A stretch of DNA of 64,000 nt from Hydrogenophaga taeniospiralis CCUG 15921. Lineage in GTDB: Bacteria > Pseudomonadota > Gammaproteobacteria > Burkholderiales > Burkholderiaceae_C. A program made the translations under genes and the position numbers. Shown piece after piece: positions 38,984 through 45,586 of this stretch. The notes under the pieces are model-generated. The model had not been told where the DNA came from. It saw nothing but the letters and a program-made list of their open reading frames with translations, and did no database searches. Position 1 is the first letter of the stretch. Each line of letters opens with the position of its first letter. The stretch is from positions 186,001 to 250,000 of the forward strand of contig NZ_BCWR01000006.1 of the NCBI RefSeq assembly GCF_001592305.1. Reading direction: 5' to 3'.

Positions 38984-39916
38984 TCAGCCGGTCTTTTTCG
39001 CTTTCACCGGCACCACCTTGCCGGCCGGTTCTCCTGGCACGATGCGCTCGCTCATCCAGCGCAGCAGGTCGAGCCACATCTGGCGGACTTCCGCGTCCAG
39101 CGGGGTGCGGAACGCGCTGGGCAGCTCGATGGTGACGACCGGCATGCCTTTGTGCACACCGCCGTAGTTACCCAGGCTGCCGGGGAAGATGCCGACCTGG
39201 TCCAGGTACAGCCGCCCCAGCTGGGGCGGGGGCACGCCCGGGCCATCGAAATCGAGCACGCCGTAGGGCGCGTGGATGCTGACGATCAGGTCGGGCTGGA
39301 AGCGCTCCATCTCGTCGTGCAGGAAGCGCGACTCGGGCTCCGACAAGGGGCTCGGACCGGGCCAGCGGCGCGGGTCCTTGCGGGTGCGCTTTTCCCAGTA
39401 GACCTTGGCGTCGCGCACCCAGTTCGGCGTGGGGAAGTTGCGGTTCAGATCGACGCCGCGCGCGTTCATGCGGGTCGCGGGCCGGACCATCAGGCCGTCG
39501 GGGTTGAGCGCCGGGATGAAGCGCCAGTGGGCGTTGGACGGCGTCTCCAGCGCGCGCTGGATCCAGTGCAGCGCCACCGAGGCGGACGAGAGCTCGTCGC
39601 CATGCATGGCCCCGATCACCAGCACGCGGATGCGCGCATCGGGCGCGACCACGTCGCGTGCGTACAGGGTGCGGCCCTTGAAGGAGCGCCCCACCGTGGG
39701 CTTGAGCTGGGCGGCCGCGCACAGCGGCGCCTTGACGTTGGGCAGTCGGGCCACGAATTCGGCGCAGGGCTCGCTGCCGGCGATGTCGGCCGGTGGGTGC
39801 CCGGGGCCGCTGCGCACGGTCGAGGCCATGGCGGCGGCCGGCAGCCACAGCAGGCTCAAGGCCAGGCCCAGGCAGGGCAGGCCGCGCAACGATCGGGGCT
39901 GAAGGGAAAAACGCAT
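38984..39916 (-). CDS. Exported M14-type zinc carboxypeptidase (MpaA/desuccinylase-like)
   Basis: 310 residues. Signal peptide at 1-31 (GLALSLLWLPAAAMAS). The M14 zinc site H-x-x-E reads GAMHGDELSS, NRNF follows in MNARGVDLNRNFPTPNW, and the third ligand histidine lies in VSIHAPYG. The family includes the murein-peptide amidase MpaA, which cleaves the gamma-D-glutamyl-diaminopimelate bond, and succinylglutamate desuccinylases. Periplasmic export suggests peptidoglycan-peptide processing. It ends in a Lys-rich tail. Confidence 0.82.
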   Translation of the reverse strand: MRFSLQPRSLRGLPCLGLALSLLWLPAAAMASTVRSGPGHPPADIAGSEPCAEFVARLPNVKAPLCAAAQLKPTVGRSFKGRTLYARDVVAPDARIRVLVIGAMHGDELSSASVALHWIQRALETPSNAHWRFIPALNPDGLMVRPATRMNARGVDLNRNFPTPNWVRDAKVYWEKRTRKDPRRWPGPSPLSEPESRFLHDEMERFQPDLIVSIHAPYGVLDFDGPGVPPPQLGRLYLDQVGIFPGSLGNYGGVHKGMPVVTIELPSAFRTPLDAEVRQMWLDLLRWMSERIVPGEPAGKVVPVKAKKTG

Positions 39917-40002: not shown

Positions 40003-41274
40003 TCACTCGTCCTTTTCGCCGGCTTCGTACAGCGTCTCGCGGCCCATGCGGTCCAGGATGAGTTCGGCCGTCCAGGGCAGCATGAGCGCGCCGCAGCGGC
40101 TGTCGCGGTACAGGCGCTCCAGCGGCAGGTGCTTGAGCATGCTCTGGCCGCCGCAGGTGCGGATCGCCAGGCGCGCGATGTCGTTGGCGCCTTCCATCAC
40201 GCTGTAGTGCGCGGCGTACAACCGCAGTTTTTCGTCCTTGCTCGGGTTGGGTTTCGCCTCGGCGATGGCGCGCGCGAAGATGCTCTTCATGTTCTCCAGC
40301 TGGATGCGCATCTGCGCCACCGCGATCTGTTTGGTGGGGAACTGGCGGCGCTTGATGGGTGGCTCGCCCGGCACCTCGCCACGCAGGTACATCACGGTGA
40401 AGTCGTAGGCGGCGTTGGCCACGCCCAGGTAGGTGGGCGAGAGCGTGAAGAACATGGCGGGCCAGGTCTGCGCGCCCTTGAAGTAGATGCCGCGCGGCAT
40501 GAGCTGCTCGGCGTCGCTCACGAACACGTCCTTGAACGCCAGGTTGCGGCTGACCGTGCCGCGCATGCCCAGCGGGTCCCAGTCGCCGCTGATGCTGAAG
40601 CCTTCGGCCGTGGCGGGCACGCTGATGTAGAGCGTGTCGCGCGCGTCGGGGTGCTGGTCGCCCTTGTCTTCGGTACAGAGCACGCCGTAGTAGTCGGCCG
40701 CGCCCGAGAGGCTGGCCCAGATCTTCCGCCCGTTGATGAGCCAGCCGCCTTCGACCTTCTTCGCCGTGGTGCCAAAGGGCGCGCGGCCGGCTGCGGCGGC
40801 CGTGCCTTCGCTGAAGGGCTGGGCGTAGAGCGCGCCGTCGTTGACGATGCGGCCGAAGTGCAACTCACGCCGCGCCGCGTGTTCGCGGCGCTCGGCGTCC
40901 GTCATGGGGATGCCATCGGCCAGCACGCCGGTCCACATGGTGCTGCAGATGTGCATGTTCCAGGTGAGCGCGGTGGCGCCGCAGAAGCGGCCGATCTCGG
41001 CCGCGACCATCATGTAGGTGGTGTAGTCCGCGCCCAGGCCGCCGTGCGAGGTGGGCACGCAGAGCTTGAGGAAACCGGCCCCGCGCAGGTCGTCGTAGTT
41101 GGCGAACGGGAAGCTGGCTTCCTGGTCCCATTGCTGCGCGCGCGCGGCGAATTTGTCGCGGCCCAGCGCGTGGGCTTTGGCCAGCAGTTCGCGCTGCAGC
41201 GGCGTGAAGGCCATGTCGCCCACGGCGGGGGTGAAGTCCAGGCCGGTGTTCGGGTTGACGGGGCGGGTGCTCAT
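40003..41274 (-). CDS. Acyl-CoA-dehydrogenase-fold flavoprotein, probable two-component monooxygenase oxygenase
   Basis: 423 residues. The acyl-CoA dehydrogenase layout is clear: helical N-terminus, FLKLCVPTSHGGLGADYTTY, the beta domain with WLINGRKIWASLSGAADYYG and DPLGMRGTVSRNLAFKDVFV, and a C-terminal helical bundle with RTCGGQSML. Where true dehydrogenases have the catalytic YEGT, this protein has LMLPWTAELI, so the usual base is absent. The same fold serves two-component flavin hydroxylases (HpaH/C2 of Acinetobacter, HsaA, DszC). Context supports that: a flavin reductase-MarR gene lies 2.2 kb away in the divergent half of the cluster, and this gene is downstream of a NicX-like dioxygenase and a hydrolase. 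GAGGAG precedes the ATG at 41274. Substrate is inference. Confidence 0.75.
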   Translation of the reverse strand: MSTRPVNPNTGLDFTPAVGDMAFTPLQRELLAKAHALGRDKFAARAQQWDQEASFPFANYDDLRGAGFLKLCVPTSHGGLGADYTTYMMVAAEIGRFCGATALTWNMHICSTMWTGVLADGIPMTDAERREHAARRELHFGRIVNDGALYAQPFSEGTAAAAGRAPFGTTAKKVEGGWLINGRKIWASLSGAADYYGVLCTEDKGDQHPDARDTLYISVPATAEGFSISGDWDPLGMRGTVSRNLAFKDVFVSDAEQLMPRGIYFKGAQTWPAMFFTLSPTYLGVANAAYDFTVMYLRGEVPGEPPIKRRQFPTKQIAVAQMRIQLENMKSIFARAIAEAKPNPSKDEKLRLYAAHYSVMEGANDIARLAIRTCGGQSMLKHLPLERLYRDSRCGALMLPWTAELILDRMGRETLYEAGEKDE

Positions 41275-41304
41275 GCGTTTGTCTCCTCTTCGGGTGTGTC
41301 GTGT

Positions 41305-42120
41305 TCAGTGCAGGTCGGGGCGCAGCTTCGGCGGTCGCTCGCGCAGGAAGTCGAGCAGGATTCGGTCGAACTCGTCTGGCGCTTCGAGGTTCATCAGGTG
41401 GCCGACGCCGGCCATCTCGACGTAGCGCGCGTTCGGAATCGCTTGCGCCATCTGCTTCATCACCGACGGCGCGGCCACGCGGTCGAACTCGCCGCCCACC
41501 AGCAGCGTGGGCACGCCGATCTGCGCCAGCGCGGCCTGGCGGTCGAAGGTGACCAGGCAGTCCAGCGCGCGGCGGTAGGTGGCGGCCGGCACACGCGCCA
41601 TGCACTGCTCGGCCAGTCGCACGCCCTCGGGCAAGGAGCCCGGCCCCACCATCTGCGGCACCAGCTTCGCGGCCATGTCGGCCATGCTCTGGCCGGCGTC
41701 CAGCGGCGCGGTGCGCTGCGCGATGAACTGCCGGGCCCAGACCTCGGCGTTGCGGCCATCGTTGCGTTTGCCGAAGGCGGCCGAGGTGCCGCAGAGGATG
41801 AGCTTGTTCACCTTGTCGGGCCGCCGCGCAATCACCTCTTGCGCCACCATGCCGCCCATGCTGTGGCCCAACAGAACCACGCTCTCGCACTGCAACGCAT
41901 CGATCAGGTTCACGCAGCTCTGCGCCAGCCCCTTGAAGGTGTAAGGCTCGATGGGCGCGCTGTAGCCGTAGCCCGGCATGTCCCAGGCCACGGCGCGGTA
42001 GCCGACCTCGCCCAGGGTCTCGACCTGGGGCGCAAAGGCCAGGTGCCCGCCGCCGATGCCGTGCAGCATCAGCACGGTGGTCTCGCCGTCGCCCAGGGTG
42101 GTGAAGGTCGGCAACATCAT
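41305..42120 (-). CDS. Alpha/beta hydrolase of the ring-cleavage cluster
   Basis: 271 residues. Catalytic nucleophile Ser in LLGHSMGGMVAQE, acid Asp in LVGGEFDRVAAP and His in AGVGHLMNLEAPDEF; the oxyanion strand is VLMLHGIGGGH. This family includes ring-cleavage-product hydrolases and N-formylmaleamate deformylase (NicD). Position between a NicX-like dioxygenase and a monooxygenase-like gene suggests it hydrolyses the ring-opened product. The ATG at 42120 (or 42117) is chosen over an upstream GTG. A repeat element separates it from the dioxygenase gene; the oxygenase gene starts 30 bp after its stop. Confidence 0.82.
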   Translation of the reverse strand: MMLPTFTTLGDGETTVLMLHGIGGGHLAFAPQVETLGEVGYRAVAWDMPGYGYSAPIEPYTFKGLAQSCVNLIDALQCESVVLLGHSMGGMVAQEVIARRPDKVNKLILCGTSAAFGKRNDGRNAEVWARQFIAQRTAPLDAGQSMADMAAKLVPQMVGPGSLPEGVRLAEQCMARVPAATYRRALDCLVTFDRQAALAQIGVPTLLVGGEFDRVAAPSVMKQMAQAIPNARYVEMAGVGHLMNLEAPDEFDRILLDFLRERPPKLRPDLH

Positions 42121-42129
42121 GATGCCCCC

Positions 42130-42205
42130 ACGCTCCACCGCTGACGCGGGTCGCTACCCCCCGAGGGGGCTGGCCTTGCTTGGGGCGGCCCTGCGCGGCG
42201 GCCGT
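42130..42205. repeat. GC-rich palindromic repeat (copy C)
   Basis: Pattern: GCTCCACCGCTGACGCGGGTCGCT, a CCCCCC/GGGGG hairpin, then CTTGCTTGGGGCGGCCC. The same order of blocks appears at 44446 and 45090, defining a second repeat subtype. It lies inside the putative operon, between hydrolase and dioxygenase genes. Confidence 0.65.
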
Positions 42206-43255
42206 TCACGCGACCACCTTTCCGGCGTCGACGACGACCGTCTCGTCCAGCATCACCGTGCAGCCGCGCATGGGCCAGTCAAAGTGGCCTCGCGTGTAGC
42301 GCCCGGCGGTTTCGTTGGCGCCCGTGCTGTAGAGGAAGTTGCCGGCGAAGGCGCGCAGTTCGGTACCGTTGAAATCGCGTTTGTCGTAGAGCGCCATGCT
42401 GTCCCAGCGCGCGGCGTCGCAGAGGCCATAGCCCACATGACTCACCGCATAAGCCTCTTGTTCGTTCCACGCGGCGAAGTACGAACGCAGCAGCTCGGCA
42501 TCGACCCCGCCGCCTTCGATGTGCGTCACGTAGTCGTGCTCGATGGTCAGCGTGATGGCGCGTTCGATGTAGCGCTTGAAGGTCAGGTTCACGTCGCCCT
42601 CGGCCAGCACCAGCGTGCCGTTCACGCTGCCCGCCGCCGGGAAGGCCAGCACCAGGCCTCCGGGCCAGTGGGTCAGCGTGCCCGGGCGGGTGGTGCTGCC
42701 CCAGTTGCCGCCGGCCACCGCGCCCTGCAGCGAGATGGACAGATCGGTGCCGGCGGGCGAGGTCACGCGCATCGCCTTGGCGCCGCGCAGGTGCTTCACA
42801 TGCGCCTTCACGCGCGCCTCGGTCGCGTCGTCGGGCAGCAGGCGCGCCAGCGCCTCGGGGTGCTCGTTGCTCACGTAGACGATGCGCGGCTGCGTGGTGC
42901 CATTGCCCTGCAGGATGGCGGGCAGCTCGGGCGCGTGCATCAGGCCTTCGACCGTACAGTCCACCACCAGGGTGCAGGCTTGCAGCGCCGCGATCACCGG
43001 GCCCAGTTGCTGGATGGCCGGTGTGGCGCCGGTGGAGCGCGTCACCGGCTCGCCGCGGGTGAACACCGAGGGCAGGGTGAGCGTGAAGGCATCGGCGCCG
43101 ATGCGCGCCGCCGCCAGCCGCGCCAGCTCCAGCAGCACCGGGCGGCTCTGGGTTTCGCCGAGAATGGCCACCGTGTCACCCGGTTGCAGCGCACAACGCC
43201 GCAACACGGCCTCGAAGGCGTCGATCCAGGCGGGTTCGGTCCGCTCCTGAAGCAT
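42206..43255 (-). CDS. NicX-like 2,5-dihydroxypyridine 5,6-dioxygenase (M29-peptidase fold)
   Basis: 349 residues against 350 in Pseudomonas NicX, with close similarity in the C-terminal half: THWPGGLVLAFP, GTLVLAEGDVNL, YAVSHVGYGLCDAARWDSMA, AFAGNFLYSTGANE and GHFDWPMRGCTVMLD. The iron ligands reported for NicX (a His, then His-x-Asp about 53 residues later) correspond here to His273, His324 and Asp326. NicX opens 2,5-dihydroxypyridine to N-formylmaleamate without using an extradiol-type fold. The start at 43255 has AGGAGA seven bases upstream; longer starts run into a repeat. First gene of a three-gene unit; divergent from the reductase-MarR gene. The true substrate may differ from the nicotinate intermediate. 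Confidence 0.85.
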   Translation of the reverse strand: MLQERTEPAWIDAFEAVLRRCALQPGDTVAILGETQSRPVLLELARLAAARIGADAFTLTLPSVFTRGEPVTRSTGATPAIQQLGPVIAALQACTLVVDCTVEGLMHAPELPAILQGNGTTQPRIVYVSNEHPEALARLLPDDATEARVKAHVKHLRGAKAMRVTSPAGTDLSISLQGAVAGGNWGSTTRPGTLTHWPGGLVLAFPAAGSVNGTLVLAEGDVNLTFKRYIERAITLTIEHDYVTHIEGGGVDAELLRSYFAAWNEQEAYAVSHVGYGLCDAARWDSMALYDKRDFNGTELRAFAGNFLYSTGANETAGRYTRGHFDWPMRGCTVMLDETVVVDAGKVVA

Positions 43256-43261
43256 AAAAAG

Positions 43262-43350
43262 TCTCCTGTCCCCCCGCGCCGCCTGCGGTGTCACCCCCCG
43301 GGGGGCGATGCCTGTGGCCCGGCAGAGCCGGTTCCACGGCATCCTTGACG
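43262..43350. repeat. GC-rich palindromic repeat (copy D)
   Basis: CCCCCGCGCCGCCTGCGGTGTCAC, a CCCCCC/GGGGGG hairpin, then GGCCCGGCAGAGCCGGTTCC and GGCATCCTTG, matching the unit at 35533-35742. It lies just upstream of the NicX-like gene's ribosome site, within the divergent promoter region. Confidence 0.7.
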
Positions 43351-43383
43351 AAGGCACGCGCGCTGAAAAAGTGGTTTGATCAA

Positions 43384-43446
43384 CCCTGCTCTTTTGATGG
43401 TGAGCAGGGGGTAGCGCCCATTATTCATGAATTTTCATATAAATTC
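43384..43446. promoter_or_regulatory. Cluster of palindromes before the flavin reductase-MarR gene
   Basis: Three elements sit in 63 bp: CCCTGCTC/GAGCAGGG with a 10-bp centre (43384-43409); the perfect palindrome ATTCATGAAT (43423-43432); and GAATTT-TCATAT-AAATTC (43429-43446), which overlaps the -10-like TATAAA just upstream of the ATG at 43452. MarR proteins bind such AT-rich palindromes, so the MarR domain encoded immediately downstream is the obvious candidate ligand-responsive repressor. Confidence 0.55.
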
Positions 43447-43451
43447 CACGT

Positions 43452-44516
43452 ATGTCCCCTGCCCGCTCCGCCGGCCACCAGGCACGGCCTCCCGACTTCT
43501 CCCCGCGCGACTTCCGCTCGGCGCTGGGCATGTTCGCCACGGGCGTGACCATCGTGACCGCGCGCACCGCGTCCGGTGAACTCGCGGGGCTGACCGCCAG
43601 CTCGTTCAATTCGGTCTCGCTGGACCCGCCGCTGGTGCTCTGGAGCCTGGGGCGTGCGGCCGGCTCGATGGCGGTGTTTGCGAACGGCCGGCACTACGCC
43701 ATCAACGTGCTCGCGGCCGACCAGCAGGCGCTGGCCGAGCGCTTCGCCGCGCGCGACGTGGACCGCTGGCAGGGCGTGGACTTCGTGGAAGGCGTCAGCG
43801 GCGCACCGGTGCTCACGGGCTGCGTCGCCACCTTCGAGTGCTTCAACCGCAGCCAGTACACCGAAGGCGACCACGTGATCTTCGTCGGCGAGGTCGAGCG
43901 CTGCACGCGCCGCGCCTCCGCCTCCCCCCTGCTCTACCACGGCGGGCGCTTCTACACCGAACACCCGCTGCAGGCCGACCCCAGCGCGCCCCAGCCCACC
44001 GACGGGCGCTTCGTCGGCAGCTACCTGGGCTACCTGCTCGGGCAGGCCAACCACGCCGTGTACCGCGACTTTGAAAACGCGATCACGGCCCAGGGCCTGA
44101 CACACATCGCCTGGCGCGTGCTCGCCGTGCTGCACGACGCGGCGCTCTCACCCGGCGAGCCGGCCGGCGTCGCCATCGGCCAGCTGGCCCACGACGTGCT
44201 CGCCAAACAGCCCACCGTGACCAAGCTGGTGCAGCGCATGGCCGAAGAAGGCCTGGTCGCGCTGCACGCCGACGCCGCGGATCAGCGGCGCACGCTGGTG
44301 GTCGCCACCGACACCGGACGGCGCATCGCCGCCGCCCTGATCGCCCAGGCGCGCCAACAGGAAACCACCCTGCTCGCGCGCTGGTCGCCCGGCGAAGCCG
44401 AAGCGTTCAAGCGGTACCTTCAAAAGCTCGTGAACGAGCCCCCACACTCCGCCGCTGCGCGGGTCGTTGCCCCGGCACGGGGAAGGGACCCGGTGCCTCC
44501 CGGGTCCGGGGGCTGA
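43452..44516 (+). CDS. Flavin reductase fused to a MarR domain
   Basis: 354 residues. Residues ~15-165 are an HpaC-type flavin reductase (RDFRSALGMFATGVTIVTAR, LTASSFNSVSLDPPLVLWSL, HVIFVGEVERC). Residues ~200-330 are MarR-like (THIAWRVLAVLHDAALSPGE, LAKQPTVTKLVQRMAEEGLV). The same architecture occurs in the C1 reductase of Acinetobacter p-hydroxyphenylacetate hydroxylase, where the MarR-like domain senses substrate and gates NADH oxidation. It would supply reduced flavin to the oxygenase at 40003. The last ~23 residues are encoded by a dispersed GC-rich repeat, so the native end is probably near residue 331. AT-rich palindromes abut the start. Confidence 0.88.
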   Translation: MSPARSAGHQARPPDFSPRDFRSALGMFATGVTIVTARTASGELAGLTASSFNSVSLDPPLVLWSLGRAAGSMAVFANGRHYAINVLAADQQALAERFAARDVDRWQGVDFVEGVSGAPVLTGCVATFECFNRSQYTEGDHVIFVGEVERCTRRASASPLLYHGGRFYTEHPLQADPSAPQPTDGRFVGSYLGYLLGQANHAVYRDFENAITAQGLTHIAWRVLAVLHDAALSPGEPAGVAIGQLAHDVLAKQPTVTKLVQRMAEEGLVALHADAADQRRTLVVATDTGRRIAAALIAQARQQETTLLARWSPGEAEAFKRYLQKLVNEPPHSAAARVVAPARGRDPVPPGSGG

Positions 44517-44545
44517 TCCGGCTTGGGGCGGCCCGGCGCCGGATC
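44446..44545. repeat. GC-rich palindromic repeat (copy E), partly coding
   Basis: It begins CTCCGCCGCTGCGCGGGTCG (44447-44466), has a central hairpin of CGGG/CCCG type, and ends with a 25-base block from 44518 identical to one at 45131. Its first part encodes the Pro/Ala/Gly-rich tail of the reductase-MarR protein. It is a close relative of copy F 640 bp downstream. Confidence 0.75.
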
Positions 44546-44602
44546 GCCAGTGATTCCCGGGCGCGACAGAGCGCGCCCCGACCCCGCGATACCCTCGACA
44601 CA

Positions 44603-45586
44603 ATGACCCCCGTCCAACGCAAAGACCACCTCGACACCCTCGCCATCACCCTGCTCGTGGCCTGTTGCGCCTTCTGGGGTTTTCAGCAGATCCTGATCAA
44701 GTTCGCCTCGCGCGAGATCCCTCCGCTGTGGCAGGCCTCGGTGCGCATGGCGGGCGCCACCGCCCTGCTCTGGCTCTGGTGCCAGCTGCGCGGCGTGAAG
44801 CTGTTCCAGCGCGACGGCTCGCTCAAGGGCGGGCTGCTGGTGGGCCTGCTGTTCGCGGGCGAGTTCTGCTTCATCTACCTCGGCCTCACGCACACCAGCG
44901 CCTCGCGCCTCACGGTGTTCCTCTACACCAGCCCGTTCTGGGTGGCCCTGCTGCTGCCGCGGTTTGTGCAGGCCGAAAAGCTGCGCCGCATCCAGTGGAT
45001 CGGCTTGACGCTGGCATTCACCGCTGTGGCTGTGGCCTTCAGCGAAGCCTTCCTGCACGCTTCGGCGCCGGCACTGTCGGGCCCCCTCGCTCCGCCGCTG
45101 CGCGGGTCGCTGCCCCCCGGGGGGGCCAGCCCGGCTTGGGGCGGCCCGGCGCCGGGCCAATGGATCGGCGACGCCATGGGCCTGGCCGCCGGCATGCTCT
45201 GGGGCCTGACCACGCTGGCGATCCGCACCACCCGGGTGGCCACGGTGGCGGCTGAAAAATCACTGTTCTACCAACTGGGCGTGACGGCCGTGGTGGCCCC
45301 GCTGCTCTCGCTCGCGCTGGGCGAGACCTGGGGCTTCGGTTACTCGGCCATGGCCTGGGGCTCGGTCTTCCTGCAGACCGCCGTGGGCGCCTTCGCCAGC
45401 TACCTGACCTGGATGTGGATGCTGCGCCACTACCCGGCCACGCAGATGTCCACCTTCACCTTCCTCACACCCGTGTTCGCGTTGGTGTTCGGCGTGGTGC
45501 TGCTGGGCGAGCCGTTGACGCTGCAGCTGGTGCTCGCGCTGCTGGGTGTGGCGGCGGGGATTGTGCTGGTGAGCCGCAGGGGGTGA
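44603..45586 (+). CDS. EamA-family (DMT) transporter carrying an in-frame repeat
   Basis: 327 residues with about ten transmembrane helices in two EamA halves (ITLLVACCAFWGFQQILIKF; later FLTPVFALVFGVVLLGE). DMT proteins export or import metabolites; next to the catabolic genes it may move the heteroaromatic substrate or an end product. Residues ~162-186 (PPLRGSLPPGGASPAWGGPA) are not typical of the family and coincide with repeat copy F, inserted in frame in the loop between the halves. It begins 86 bp after the reductase gene on the same strand. The gene's end abuts a remnant of another gene on the opposite strand. Confidence 0.82.
   Translation: MTPVQRKDHLDTLAITLLVACCAFWGFQQILIKFASREIPPLWQASVRMAGATALLWLWCQLRGVKLFQRDGSLKGGLLVGLLFAGEFCFIYLGLTHTSASRLTVFLYTSPFWVALLLPRFVQAEKLRRIQWIGLTLAFTAVAVAFSEAFLHASAPALSGPLAPPLRGSLPPGGASPAWGGPAPGQWIGDAMGLAAGMLWGLTTLAIRTTRVATVAAEKSLFYQLGVTAVVAPLLSLALGETWGFGYSAMAWGSVFLQTAVGAFASYLTWMWMLRHYPATQMSTFTFLTPVFALVFGVVLLGEPLTLQLVLALLGVAAGIVLVSRRG
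45080..45163. repeat. GC-rich palindromic repeat (copy F) inside a coding region
   Basis: Two long blocks are identical to copy E: 20 bases from 45090 and 25 bases from 45131, around a CCCCCC/GGGGGGG hairpin. It lies wholly within the EamA gene without breaking the frame. Confidence 0.8.

Follow-up and report, generated by a model that had tools for sequence, protein, structure and literature searches.

A conserved NicX-like gene module in Hydrogenophaga taeniospiralis and its relatives: a possible upper pathway from indole to anthranilate

NicX opens 2,5-dihydroxypyridine between C5 and C6, giving N-formylmaleamate, a product with an N-formyl group and a carboxylate, and in the same pyridine route NicD takes off the formyl group. 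Here we analyse a relative of NicX and the genes around it in a stretch of 64,000 nucleotides from Hydrogenophaga taeniospiralis CCUG 15921 (contig NZ_BCWR01000006.1, positions 186,001 to 250,000; hereafter the window). An earlier note on this DNA had described these genes as an undescribed module that hydroxylates, opens and deformylates a hydroxypyridine-like compound. The conserved set of hydroxylase, ring-opening enzyme and hydrolase stands, and a shared operator-like element can be added to it. The hydroxypyridine substrate is not supported, as the Glu177 of NicX is replaced in all 79 module proteins that could be read. The substrate is probably an N-heteroaromatic compound other than nicotinate, and we give about even credence to a module devoted to the upper degradation of an indole-type compound, with indole itself as the simplest case, a substrate that we assign from context.

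Indole occurs widely, both as a signal and as a pollutant. The described gene sets closest to this proposal are the iif/ind operons of Acinetobacter and Cupriavidus, which combine a two-component oxygenase with a flavin reductase and yield anthranilate; IifC has the fold of the acyl-CoA dehydrogenases (ACADs). The likeness to our module is one of fold and partner only. The iif/ind operons rely on IifB, a short-chain dehydrogenase, and on IifA, an oxygenase that needs no cofactor; in the module an Fe(II) dioxygenase and a hydrolase would take their place. According to PMC6221969, ACAD-like proteins or two-component oxygenases known to act on indole include IacA, IifC and IndA, N-formylanthranilate is not an intermediate on the way to anthranilate in the known aerobic gene sets (iif/ind), and the Cupriavidus route uses a 2-aminobenzoyl-CoA lower pathway. 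The same paper records that N-formylanthranilate was proposed as an indole intermediate in 1953, via isatin. In the open-access literature that was searched we found no gene for the opening of indoxyl to N-formylanthranilate, and the module is apparently undescribed there. The indole papers searched for the names Hydrogenophaga, Polaromonas, Ramlibacter and Pandoraea contain no mention of these genera.

We propose the following series of reactions. The ACAD-fold oxygenase, with reduced flavin from its reductase, would hydroxylate indole at C3 to indoxyl, and the NicX-like Fe(II) dioxygenase would open the N-CH=C(OH) unit of indoxyl between C2 and C3. Since indoxyl shares this unit with 2,5-dihydroxypyridine, the expected product is N-formylanthranilate, the kind of compound that a deformylase would take, and cleavage of N-CH=C(OH) is predicted to be common to NicX and the module protein. 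The alpha/beta hydrolase would remove formate to leave anthranilate, which would enter a 2-aminobenzoyl-CoA pathway encoded elsewhere in the host genome. A MarR protein would repress both divergent transcripts at a palindrome, and an indole-like ligand would release it. With slightly less than even confidence we propose that the NicX-like proteins form a non-heme Fe(II) branch of the NicX family with indoxyl 2,3-dioxygenase activity, which would open the pyrrole ring of indole to N-formylanthranilate, in a module under its own indole-sensing MarR and operator.

A conserved gene module with its own palindrome

Five reading frames had been claimed at this locus, and all of them lie where they had been placed. 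On the minus strand are genes for an ACAD-fold flavoprotein, the probable oxygenase of a two-component flavin monooxygenase (40003-41274; Pfam Acyl-CoA_dh domains), for an alpha/beta hydrolase that we propose to act on N-formyl (amide) bonds (41305-42138; Pfam Abhydrolase_1) and for a ring-opening dioxygenase of the non-heme Fe(II) type that belongs to the NicX family but lacks the Glu177 by which NicX binds 2,5-dihydroxypyridine (42206-43255; recognised by phmmer and Foldseek). Divergently, on the plus strand, the described fusion of a flavin reductase with a MarR domain (43452-44516; Pfam Flavin_Reduct and MarR_2) and the EamA-family transporter, a conserved neighbour (44603-45586; Pfam EamA), were both borne out. 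The NicX-like gene likely starts at 43255: a start at MLQERTEP gives 349 amino acids at 42206-43255 (-), and the residue numbers of the earlier note fit that start. In the divergent promoter region lies the operator-like element TATATGAAAATTCATGAATAATG (43419-43441, -), the sole copy in the window, with the palindromic core ATGAANNTTCAT at 43427-43438.

The conservation of these genes was followed in two samples, which overlap in some genomes (e.g. L037/L113, L036/L119 and L034/L079). One is a sample of 399 genomes of the order, 27 of which have a NicX-like match at E <= 1e-20. Among the order-level relatives with at least 56% identity (n=15), an ACAD gene adjoins the NicX-like gene in all 15 and the hydrolase gene in 14. 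The other is a named set of 80 loci, the best 80 of at least 571 relatives, which favours close kin and includes Hydrogenophaga, Ramlibacter, Polaromonas, Limnohabitans, Caenimonas, Pandoraea, some Alphaproteobacteria, one Methylomirabilota bin and others. By tblastn the hydrolase was found in 75 of these loci, the ACAD-type gene in 70, MarR in 67 and the reductase in 63. Less frequent were EamA (37 loci), a CoA ligase (32) and an M14 peptidase (22). Seven of the ten misses of the ACAD-type gene fall at contig ends and three are real (L099, L111 and L112). A neighbourhood survey, which had been suggested as a check on the locus, thus finds the dioxygenase, hydrolase, flavoprotein and reductase genes conserved together, and the module is spread through the Burkholderiales and some Alphaproteobacteria. 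Many of the neighbour families were assigned by eye, with family searches as a check on the ones the argument depends on.

The palindrome follows the module closely. The upstream stretches of 220 bases that were tested (the window and 68 of the 80 loci) contain it exactly in 54 of 69 cases, against a mean of 0.0 for mononucleotide shuffles. Within 1.6 kb upstream it is present in 64 of the 67 MarR-bearing loci and in one of the 13 others (L107, on a truncated contig). The 80 loci together span 1,366,752 bases, and each of the 65 copies found in them is upstream of the NicX-like gene. The host genome of 5.28 Mb has two copies, the second downstream of a gene for a protein like the binding proteins of ABC-type systems. 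Because the genes co-occur and every palindrome copy in the loci sits upstream of the NicX-like gene, the dioxygenase, hydrolase, flavoprotein, reductase and MarR genes are one regulated module.

Altered dioxygenase pocket, partner enzymes and regulator

At the limits used neither Pfam nor NCBIfam recognises the NicX-like protein, yet its relationship to NicX is clear. A phmmer search matches it to the NicX structure 7cn3 of Pseudomonas putida KT2440 (E 2.9e-58, over residues 46-383 of the longer frame), and in a Foldseek search its AlphaFold model (mean pLDDT 89.4) matches NicX at TM 0.88-0.89 and, more weakly, M29 aminopeptidases. The ligand pattern of His273, His324 and Asp326 reported before holds without exception in an alignment of 25 rows and in 79 of the 80 named loci, as do Ser310 and Arg301; the five residues correspond to H265, H318, D320, S302 and R293 of NicX. 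According to PMC7910607, the iron ligands of NicX are H265, S302, H318 and D320, R293 positions D320, H189 and H105 bond the substrate, and E177 makes hydrogen bonds to the pyridine N1 and O1, with the E177A variant retaining 2.7% activity.

Pocket residues could be read in 79 of the 80 loci (L105 gave no usable frame). All 79 module proteins keep the four iron ligands together with R293, H105 and H189; fold and iron site are shared with NicX. What differs is the pyridine contact: the E177 position is N in 40, V in 25 and G in 14 proteins (Asn in the window), and Y178 has become W. E177 is kept in seven of seven nicotinate-type NicX proteins and is Gln in two more distant relatives, and the equivalent residue is T in three rhizobial loci. 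A tree of the family joins the module proteins to a rhizobial branch and to a branch whose hydroxylase is of another kind (100/99), and sets all of these apart from a group of NicX with its nicotinate relatives (99/99); this tree is midpoint-rooted and drew a long-branch warning from the tool. The module protein thus differs from NicX in its pocket and clade, and also in its operon partners and lower pathway. A literal 2,5-dihydroxypyridine dioxygenase was rejected as a description of it, with Glu177 replaced and the corresponding lower pathway not found in the host genome.

His105 is a separate matter. In the Burkholderiales nicotinate-type loci L055-L061 the NicX relatives carry Phe at the position of this residue of P. 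putida NicX, whose H105 Ala variant is reported to be inactive (PMC7910607). Because seven of seven nicotinate-type relatives have Phe there, H105 is not diagnostic.

The flavoprotein had been described as lacking the catalytic glutamate of the motif YEGT, which we take to mark this residue in ACADs, and this is correct: in 33 of 33 aligned proteins the position is the Leu of LMLPW. Its best sequence matches in the PDB, both at E 1.3e-33, are 5z8t, titled Flavin-containing monooxygenase, and 5gj7, titled putative Acyl-CoA dehydrogenase. We infer that the protein is a monooxygenase, because the ACAD catalytic glutamate is lost and a flavin reductase is its partner. Literature searches for ACAD-type hydroxypyridine oxygenases and for the structure 5gj7 were without yield. 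The hydrolase keeps the Ser-Asp-His triad reported for it (S93/D219/H247 in 62 of 62 proteins, from 61 loci and the window). Since it has 24% identity over 250 residues to the NicD-like protein of a nicotinate-type locus, similar to its identity to another, unrelated hydrolase, deformylation is a putative reaction for this enzyme.

The earlier suggestion of a substrate that controls the reductase by way of the MarR domain, like that of the two-component 4-hydroxyphenylacetate hydroxylase (HPAH, C1/C2) of Acinetobacter, has been weakened. The window shares with HPAH the reductase-MarR fusion and an ACAD-fold oxygenase. However, among the 59 loci that have both reductase and MarR the two are fused in five, separate on the same strand in 46 and on opposite strands in eight, the NCBIfam scores stay below the cut-off for both C1 (204 of 340 bits) and C2 (49 of 650 bits), and the MarR part is nearer to auxin-type MarRs than to HpaR. 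HPAH-like gating was rejected as the general mechanism, the fusion being rare. Given the conserved palindrome in the divergent promoter region, ordinary transcriptional control is the simpler reading, and it is presumably the MarR protein that binds the palindrome.

The best PDB match of the MarR domain is 3cdh (2.2e-18), followed by Variovorax MarR_73 (7kki/7kfo, 1.3e-16) and, far behind, HpaR (5.6e-6). MarR_73 was solved with indole-3-acetate (PMC9613470). Its contacts were compared in 67 of the 80 loci. Of the five indole-ring contacts, Y15, W45 and R46 are Y, W and R in the window and are kept in 66, 67 and 67 of the 67 loci. At the two carboxylate contacts, S28 and H32, the window has Tyr and Glu instead; S is present in 20 and H in 29 of the 67. 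Read from the aligned residues, this is suggestive of a pocket that would fit an indole-like ligand without the acetate group, at least in the lineage of the window. The iad/IadR auxin degradation system of Variovorax offers a parallel, as the module MarR is homologous to MarR_73 and an indole-type substrate is there converted to anthranilate, but that route starts with a Rieske-type oxygenase, unlike the module. A preprint (PMC12633357) reports that the C8H7NO3 intermediate of the iad route is not N-formylanthranilate.

Anthranilate context and competing explanations

The indole reading draws its substrate from the neighbourhoods of related loci. The ANTHRANILATE context was seen in Limnohabitans-type loci, where the module follows genes for a fused monooxygenase/reductase, a short-chain dehydrogenase, an enoyl-CoA hydratase, an ACAD, a ligase and RidA. 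The monooxygenase/reductase matches NCBIfam PRK08255 with 1314 bits against a cut-off of 1078 and is named salicylyl-CoA 5-hydroxylase by NCBI, and the ligase comes near the benzoate-CoA-ligase model (355 of 375 bits). We name the former 2-aminobenzoyl-CoA monooxygenase/reductase (ABM), a naming calibrated on the Arthrobacter plasmid pAL1, where the salicylyl-CoA 5-hydroxylase label is on the gene after the AMP-binding protein. Within up to 10 kb on each side, 12 of the 80 loci have an ABM-type flavoprotein, 12 the CoA ligase that goes with it and 15 RidA. Genes for tryptophan dioxygenase, kynureninase and arylformamidase stand beside the MarR gene in three of the 80 loci, all of them Pandoraea (three of three Pandoraea loci), and the proteins of one of these, L120, score above the cut-offs. 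In Shinella the module, a relative of the anthranilate-CoA ligase, tryptophan dioxygenase, kynureninase and an ABM cluster lie within about 28 kb; the Shinella genes, like those of a Sinorhizobium plasmid, were located by tblastn.

The host genome itself has, on another contig, a nearly complete anthranilate-CoA cluster of ABM, MarR, hydratase, ACAD, ligase and RidA, with no match to the short-chain dehydrogenase there. Its monooxygenase/reductase and ligase have 49% and 48% identity to their pAL1 counterparts, and a kynureninase match (61%) is also present in the genome. Both halves of ABM were found in 16 of 16 order-sample genomes with NicX-like and ACAD genes and in 57 of 399 overall, a count from which six of 63 genomes with one half matched were dropped; one genome, G314, belongs to both NicX groups. 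Physical linkage to ABM within 20 kb is seen in six of the 16 genomes and in one of seven nicotinate-type genomes (G237). Genome co-occurrence with ABM was rejected as decisive evidence.

Plasmid pAL1 provides a described precedent for such an arrangement, as its quinaldine-to-anthranilate pathway unites an upper pathway for an N-heterocycle with an AMP-binding ligase, an ABM-type gene and RidA. Unlike in the module, the ring is opened there by a 2,4-dioxygenase (meqE) with CO among the products, and the alpha/beta hydrolase after meqE shows no match to the module hydrolase even at E 10.

A number of observations weigh against the indole reading. The co-occurrence with ABM is not specific, because six of seven nicotinate-NicX genomes have ABM too. 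The linkage is clustered by lineage, with nine of the 12 ABM loci in one Limnohabitans-type group, and in the Hydrogenophaga/Ramlibacter-type loci ABM lies within 10 kb in L068 only, where the edge of the locus truncates it. Of the four rhizobial loci, three (L157-L159) lack neighbouring anthranilate genes by tblastn. The CoA ligase next to the module in 32 of the 80 loci has 28-29% identity to the anthranilate ligase of pAL1. No IifB-type dehydrogenase is among the ten window proteins scanned (35.7-49.9 kb), and the short-chain dehydrogenase of related loci is part of the ABM cluster. L100 and L113 keep dioxygenase and flavoprotein, but no hydrolase was found there, and the best NCBIfam models for the hydrolase are those of the enol-lactonase PcaD, below the cut-off. 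The MarR pocket differs from that of MarR_73, since A18 is Tyr in 66 of 67 loci and V65 varies; neither of these ring contacts is kept in the window. The flavoprotein scores best with the ACAD model FadE16 (132 of 600 bits, with HsaA at 68, DszC at 57 and HPAH at 49), and its AlphaFold model (mean pLDDT 85.9) matches ACADs and a flavin monooxygenase entry alike in Foldseek, so that the classes are not separated.

These last points lead to a reading in which the flavoprotein is an ordinary ACAD, the cluster serves the CoA-thioester catabolism of some acid and the NicX-like protein is a peptidase-like hydrolase. The ACAD fold, the FadE16 score, the closeness of true ACADs to the monooxygenase entry in Foldseek and the title of 5gj7 all speak for it, as do the adjacent CoA ligase and the relationship of the NicX fold to M29 aminopeptidases. 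We nevertheless regard it as very improbable. The profile search, which had been suggested as a check on the protein, ranks FadE16 first but leaves every ACAD model, and every monooxygenase model too, below its cut-off, the catalytic glutamate is replaced throughout the aligned proteins, the reductase partner is present in 63 of 80 loci, the two best PDB sequence matches include a flavin monooxygenase entry, and Pfam M29 has no match in the host genome at E 0.001.

The hydroxypyridine model of the earlier note, in which a hydroxypyridine (2,5-dihydroxypyridine or an analogue) is hydroxylated, opened by the NicX-like enzyme and deformylated, is favoured by the homology and fold, by the conserved iron site with H105 and H189, by the adjoining alpha/beta hydrolase and by a xanthine-dehydrogenase-type gene (named by eye) near the module in nine loci. 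This enzyme class includes N-heterocycle hydroxylases. Against the model, E177 is replaced where nicotinate-type enzymes keep it, the module proteins form a separate clade, clusters with NicC/NicD/NicE/NicF-like genes occur in L055-L061 only and not beside the module in L034-L054, and both neighbourhoods and host genome point to anthranilate. The claim that the usual nicotinate genes are absent holds in so far as a genome-wide search with proteins of nicotinate-type loci gave no convincing host match; nicAB was not searched for. The queries which we take to be NicC- and NicF-like (the families themselves were checked) gave matches of 29-36% only for the former and, for the isochorismatase-family NicF-like protein, two weak partial matches (33% and 40%). 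An Amdase-family (maleate-isomerase-like) protein has no match in the host genome, and a lower pathway from dihydroxypyridine to maleamate, maleate and fumarate was not found there. We consider the model quite unlikely.

The anthranilate context could also belong to other substrates or to another step. Another heterocycle with a 2-aminobenzoyl unit, either a substituted indole (e.g. hydroxyindole) or a quinolone, could be converted to a substituted anthranilate or to isatinate. It would share the same context; the bicupin, FAH hydrolase and C-N hydrolase of an Aminobacter variant (see below) would suit a hydroxylated anthranilate, and because the E177-equivalent residue varies between N, V and G, with T in the rhizobial loci, substrates may differ between branches. 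Plain indole, however, is the smallest substrate that fits the free N-CH=C-H unit, and a quinolone would by the proposed chemistry give isatinate, not anthranilate; we think this alternative unlikely. A module acting below anthranilate would show the same linkage to ABM, the CoA ligase and the kynurenine genes, which is why we keep a reading as a second lower pathway: the flavoprotein would 5-hydroxylate anthranilate, free or as the CoA thioester, and the carbocycle would be opened by the NicX-like enzyme. ABM is reported to give 5-hydroxyanthraniloyl-CoA under NADH limitation (PMC3534580), and in four related loci an MhpD-like hydratase gene adjoins the ligase. Such a route would be redundant, because all 16 order-sample genomes with NicX-like and ACAD genes encode ABM. 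In addition, NicX is reported not to open phenols, hydroquinones or catechols (PMC7910607), and the MarR resembles auxin-type MarRs. We rate this second lower pathway as distinctly doubtful.

Variant branches and implications

Some loci carry variants of the module. In one family, L050-L054 (genomes G334, G276, G246, G109 and G386), a class A FAD aromatic hydroxylase replaces the ACAD-type oxygenase beside the NicX-like and alpha/beta hydrolase genes. Their pocket residues, with Arg in place of V175 and Tyr in place of H189, suggest a different, perhaps carboxylated substrate; the five genomes have no ABM match at E 1e-100. On plasmid pAA02 of Aminobacter aminovorans (L158, 11932-24045) a variant lies beside genes for a bicupin, an FAH-family hydrolase, a C-N hydrolase, a glutamine-synthetase-like enzyme and an APC permease, the last two being carried by the rhizobial branch. 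The bicupin is related to gentisate and 5-aminosalicylate 1,2-dioxygenases, below the cut-off, and the cluster may handle a hydroxylated anthranilate. At L039 (14550-18978, G180:C4) a second, distant NicX relative is found about 7 kb from the module, with an ABM-type gene and a bicupin that clusters with a gentisate-dioxygenase-like one.

Other neighbours recur in parts of the set. The CoA ligase next to the module was considered as a possible anthranilate ligase, but it has only 28-29% identity to the proven pAL1 enzyme. Divergent from this ligase, a 2-oxopent-4-enoate-hydratase (MhpD-like) gene is found in L041, L044, L045 and L046, which are one family; the one copy scanned scores below the model cut-off. 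Xanthine-dehydrogenase-type molybdenum subunits and Rieske-type oxygenases (named by eye) occur near the module in nine loci each, mainly in Ramlibacter and Caenimonas. Downstream of the module in the window lies a conserved gene for an M14-family peptidase (38984-39916, -; Pfam Peptidase_M14), which has no evident role in the module. An orphan ACAD-type gene with 56% identity stands near xisHI-like and hypothetical genes on plasmid pDol_DET69_01, assigned to Dolichospermum from a metagenome (L152, 7998-9245), the other module genes not being among its annotated features. Finally, L138 is titled Akkermansia muciniphila while its locus looks Limnohabitans-type, and this bin is probably contaminated or mislabelled.

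If the indole reading is true, an enzyme would be assigned to the formation of N-formylanthranilate, and the chemistry of NicX would reach from pyridines to fused rings. Indole turnover would then be predicted in freshwater and soil genera such as Hydrogenophaga, Limnohabitans, Polaromonas, Ramlibacter and Pandoraea.

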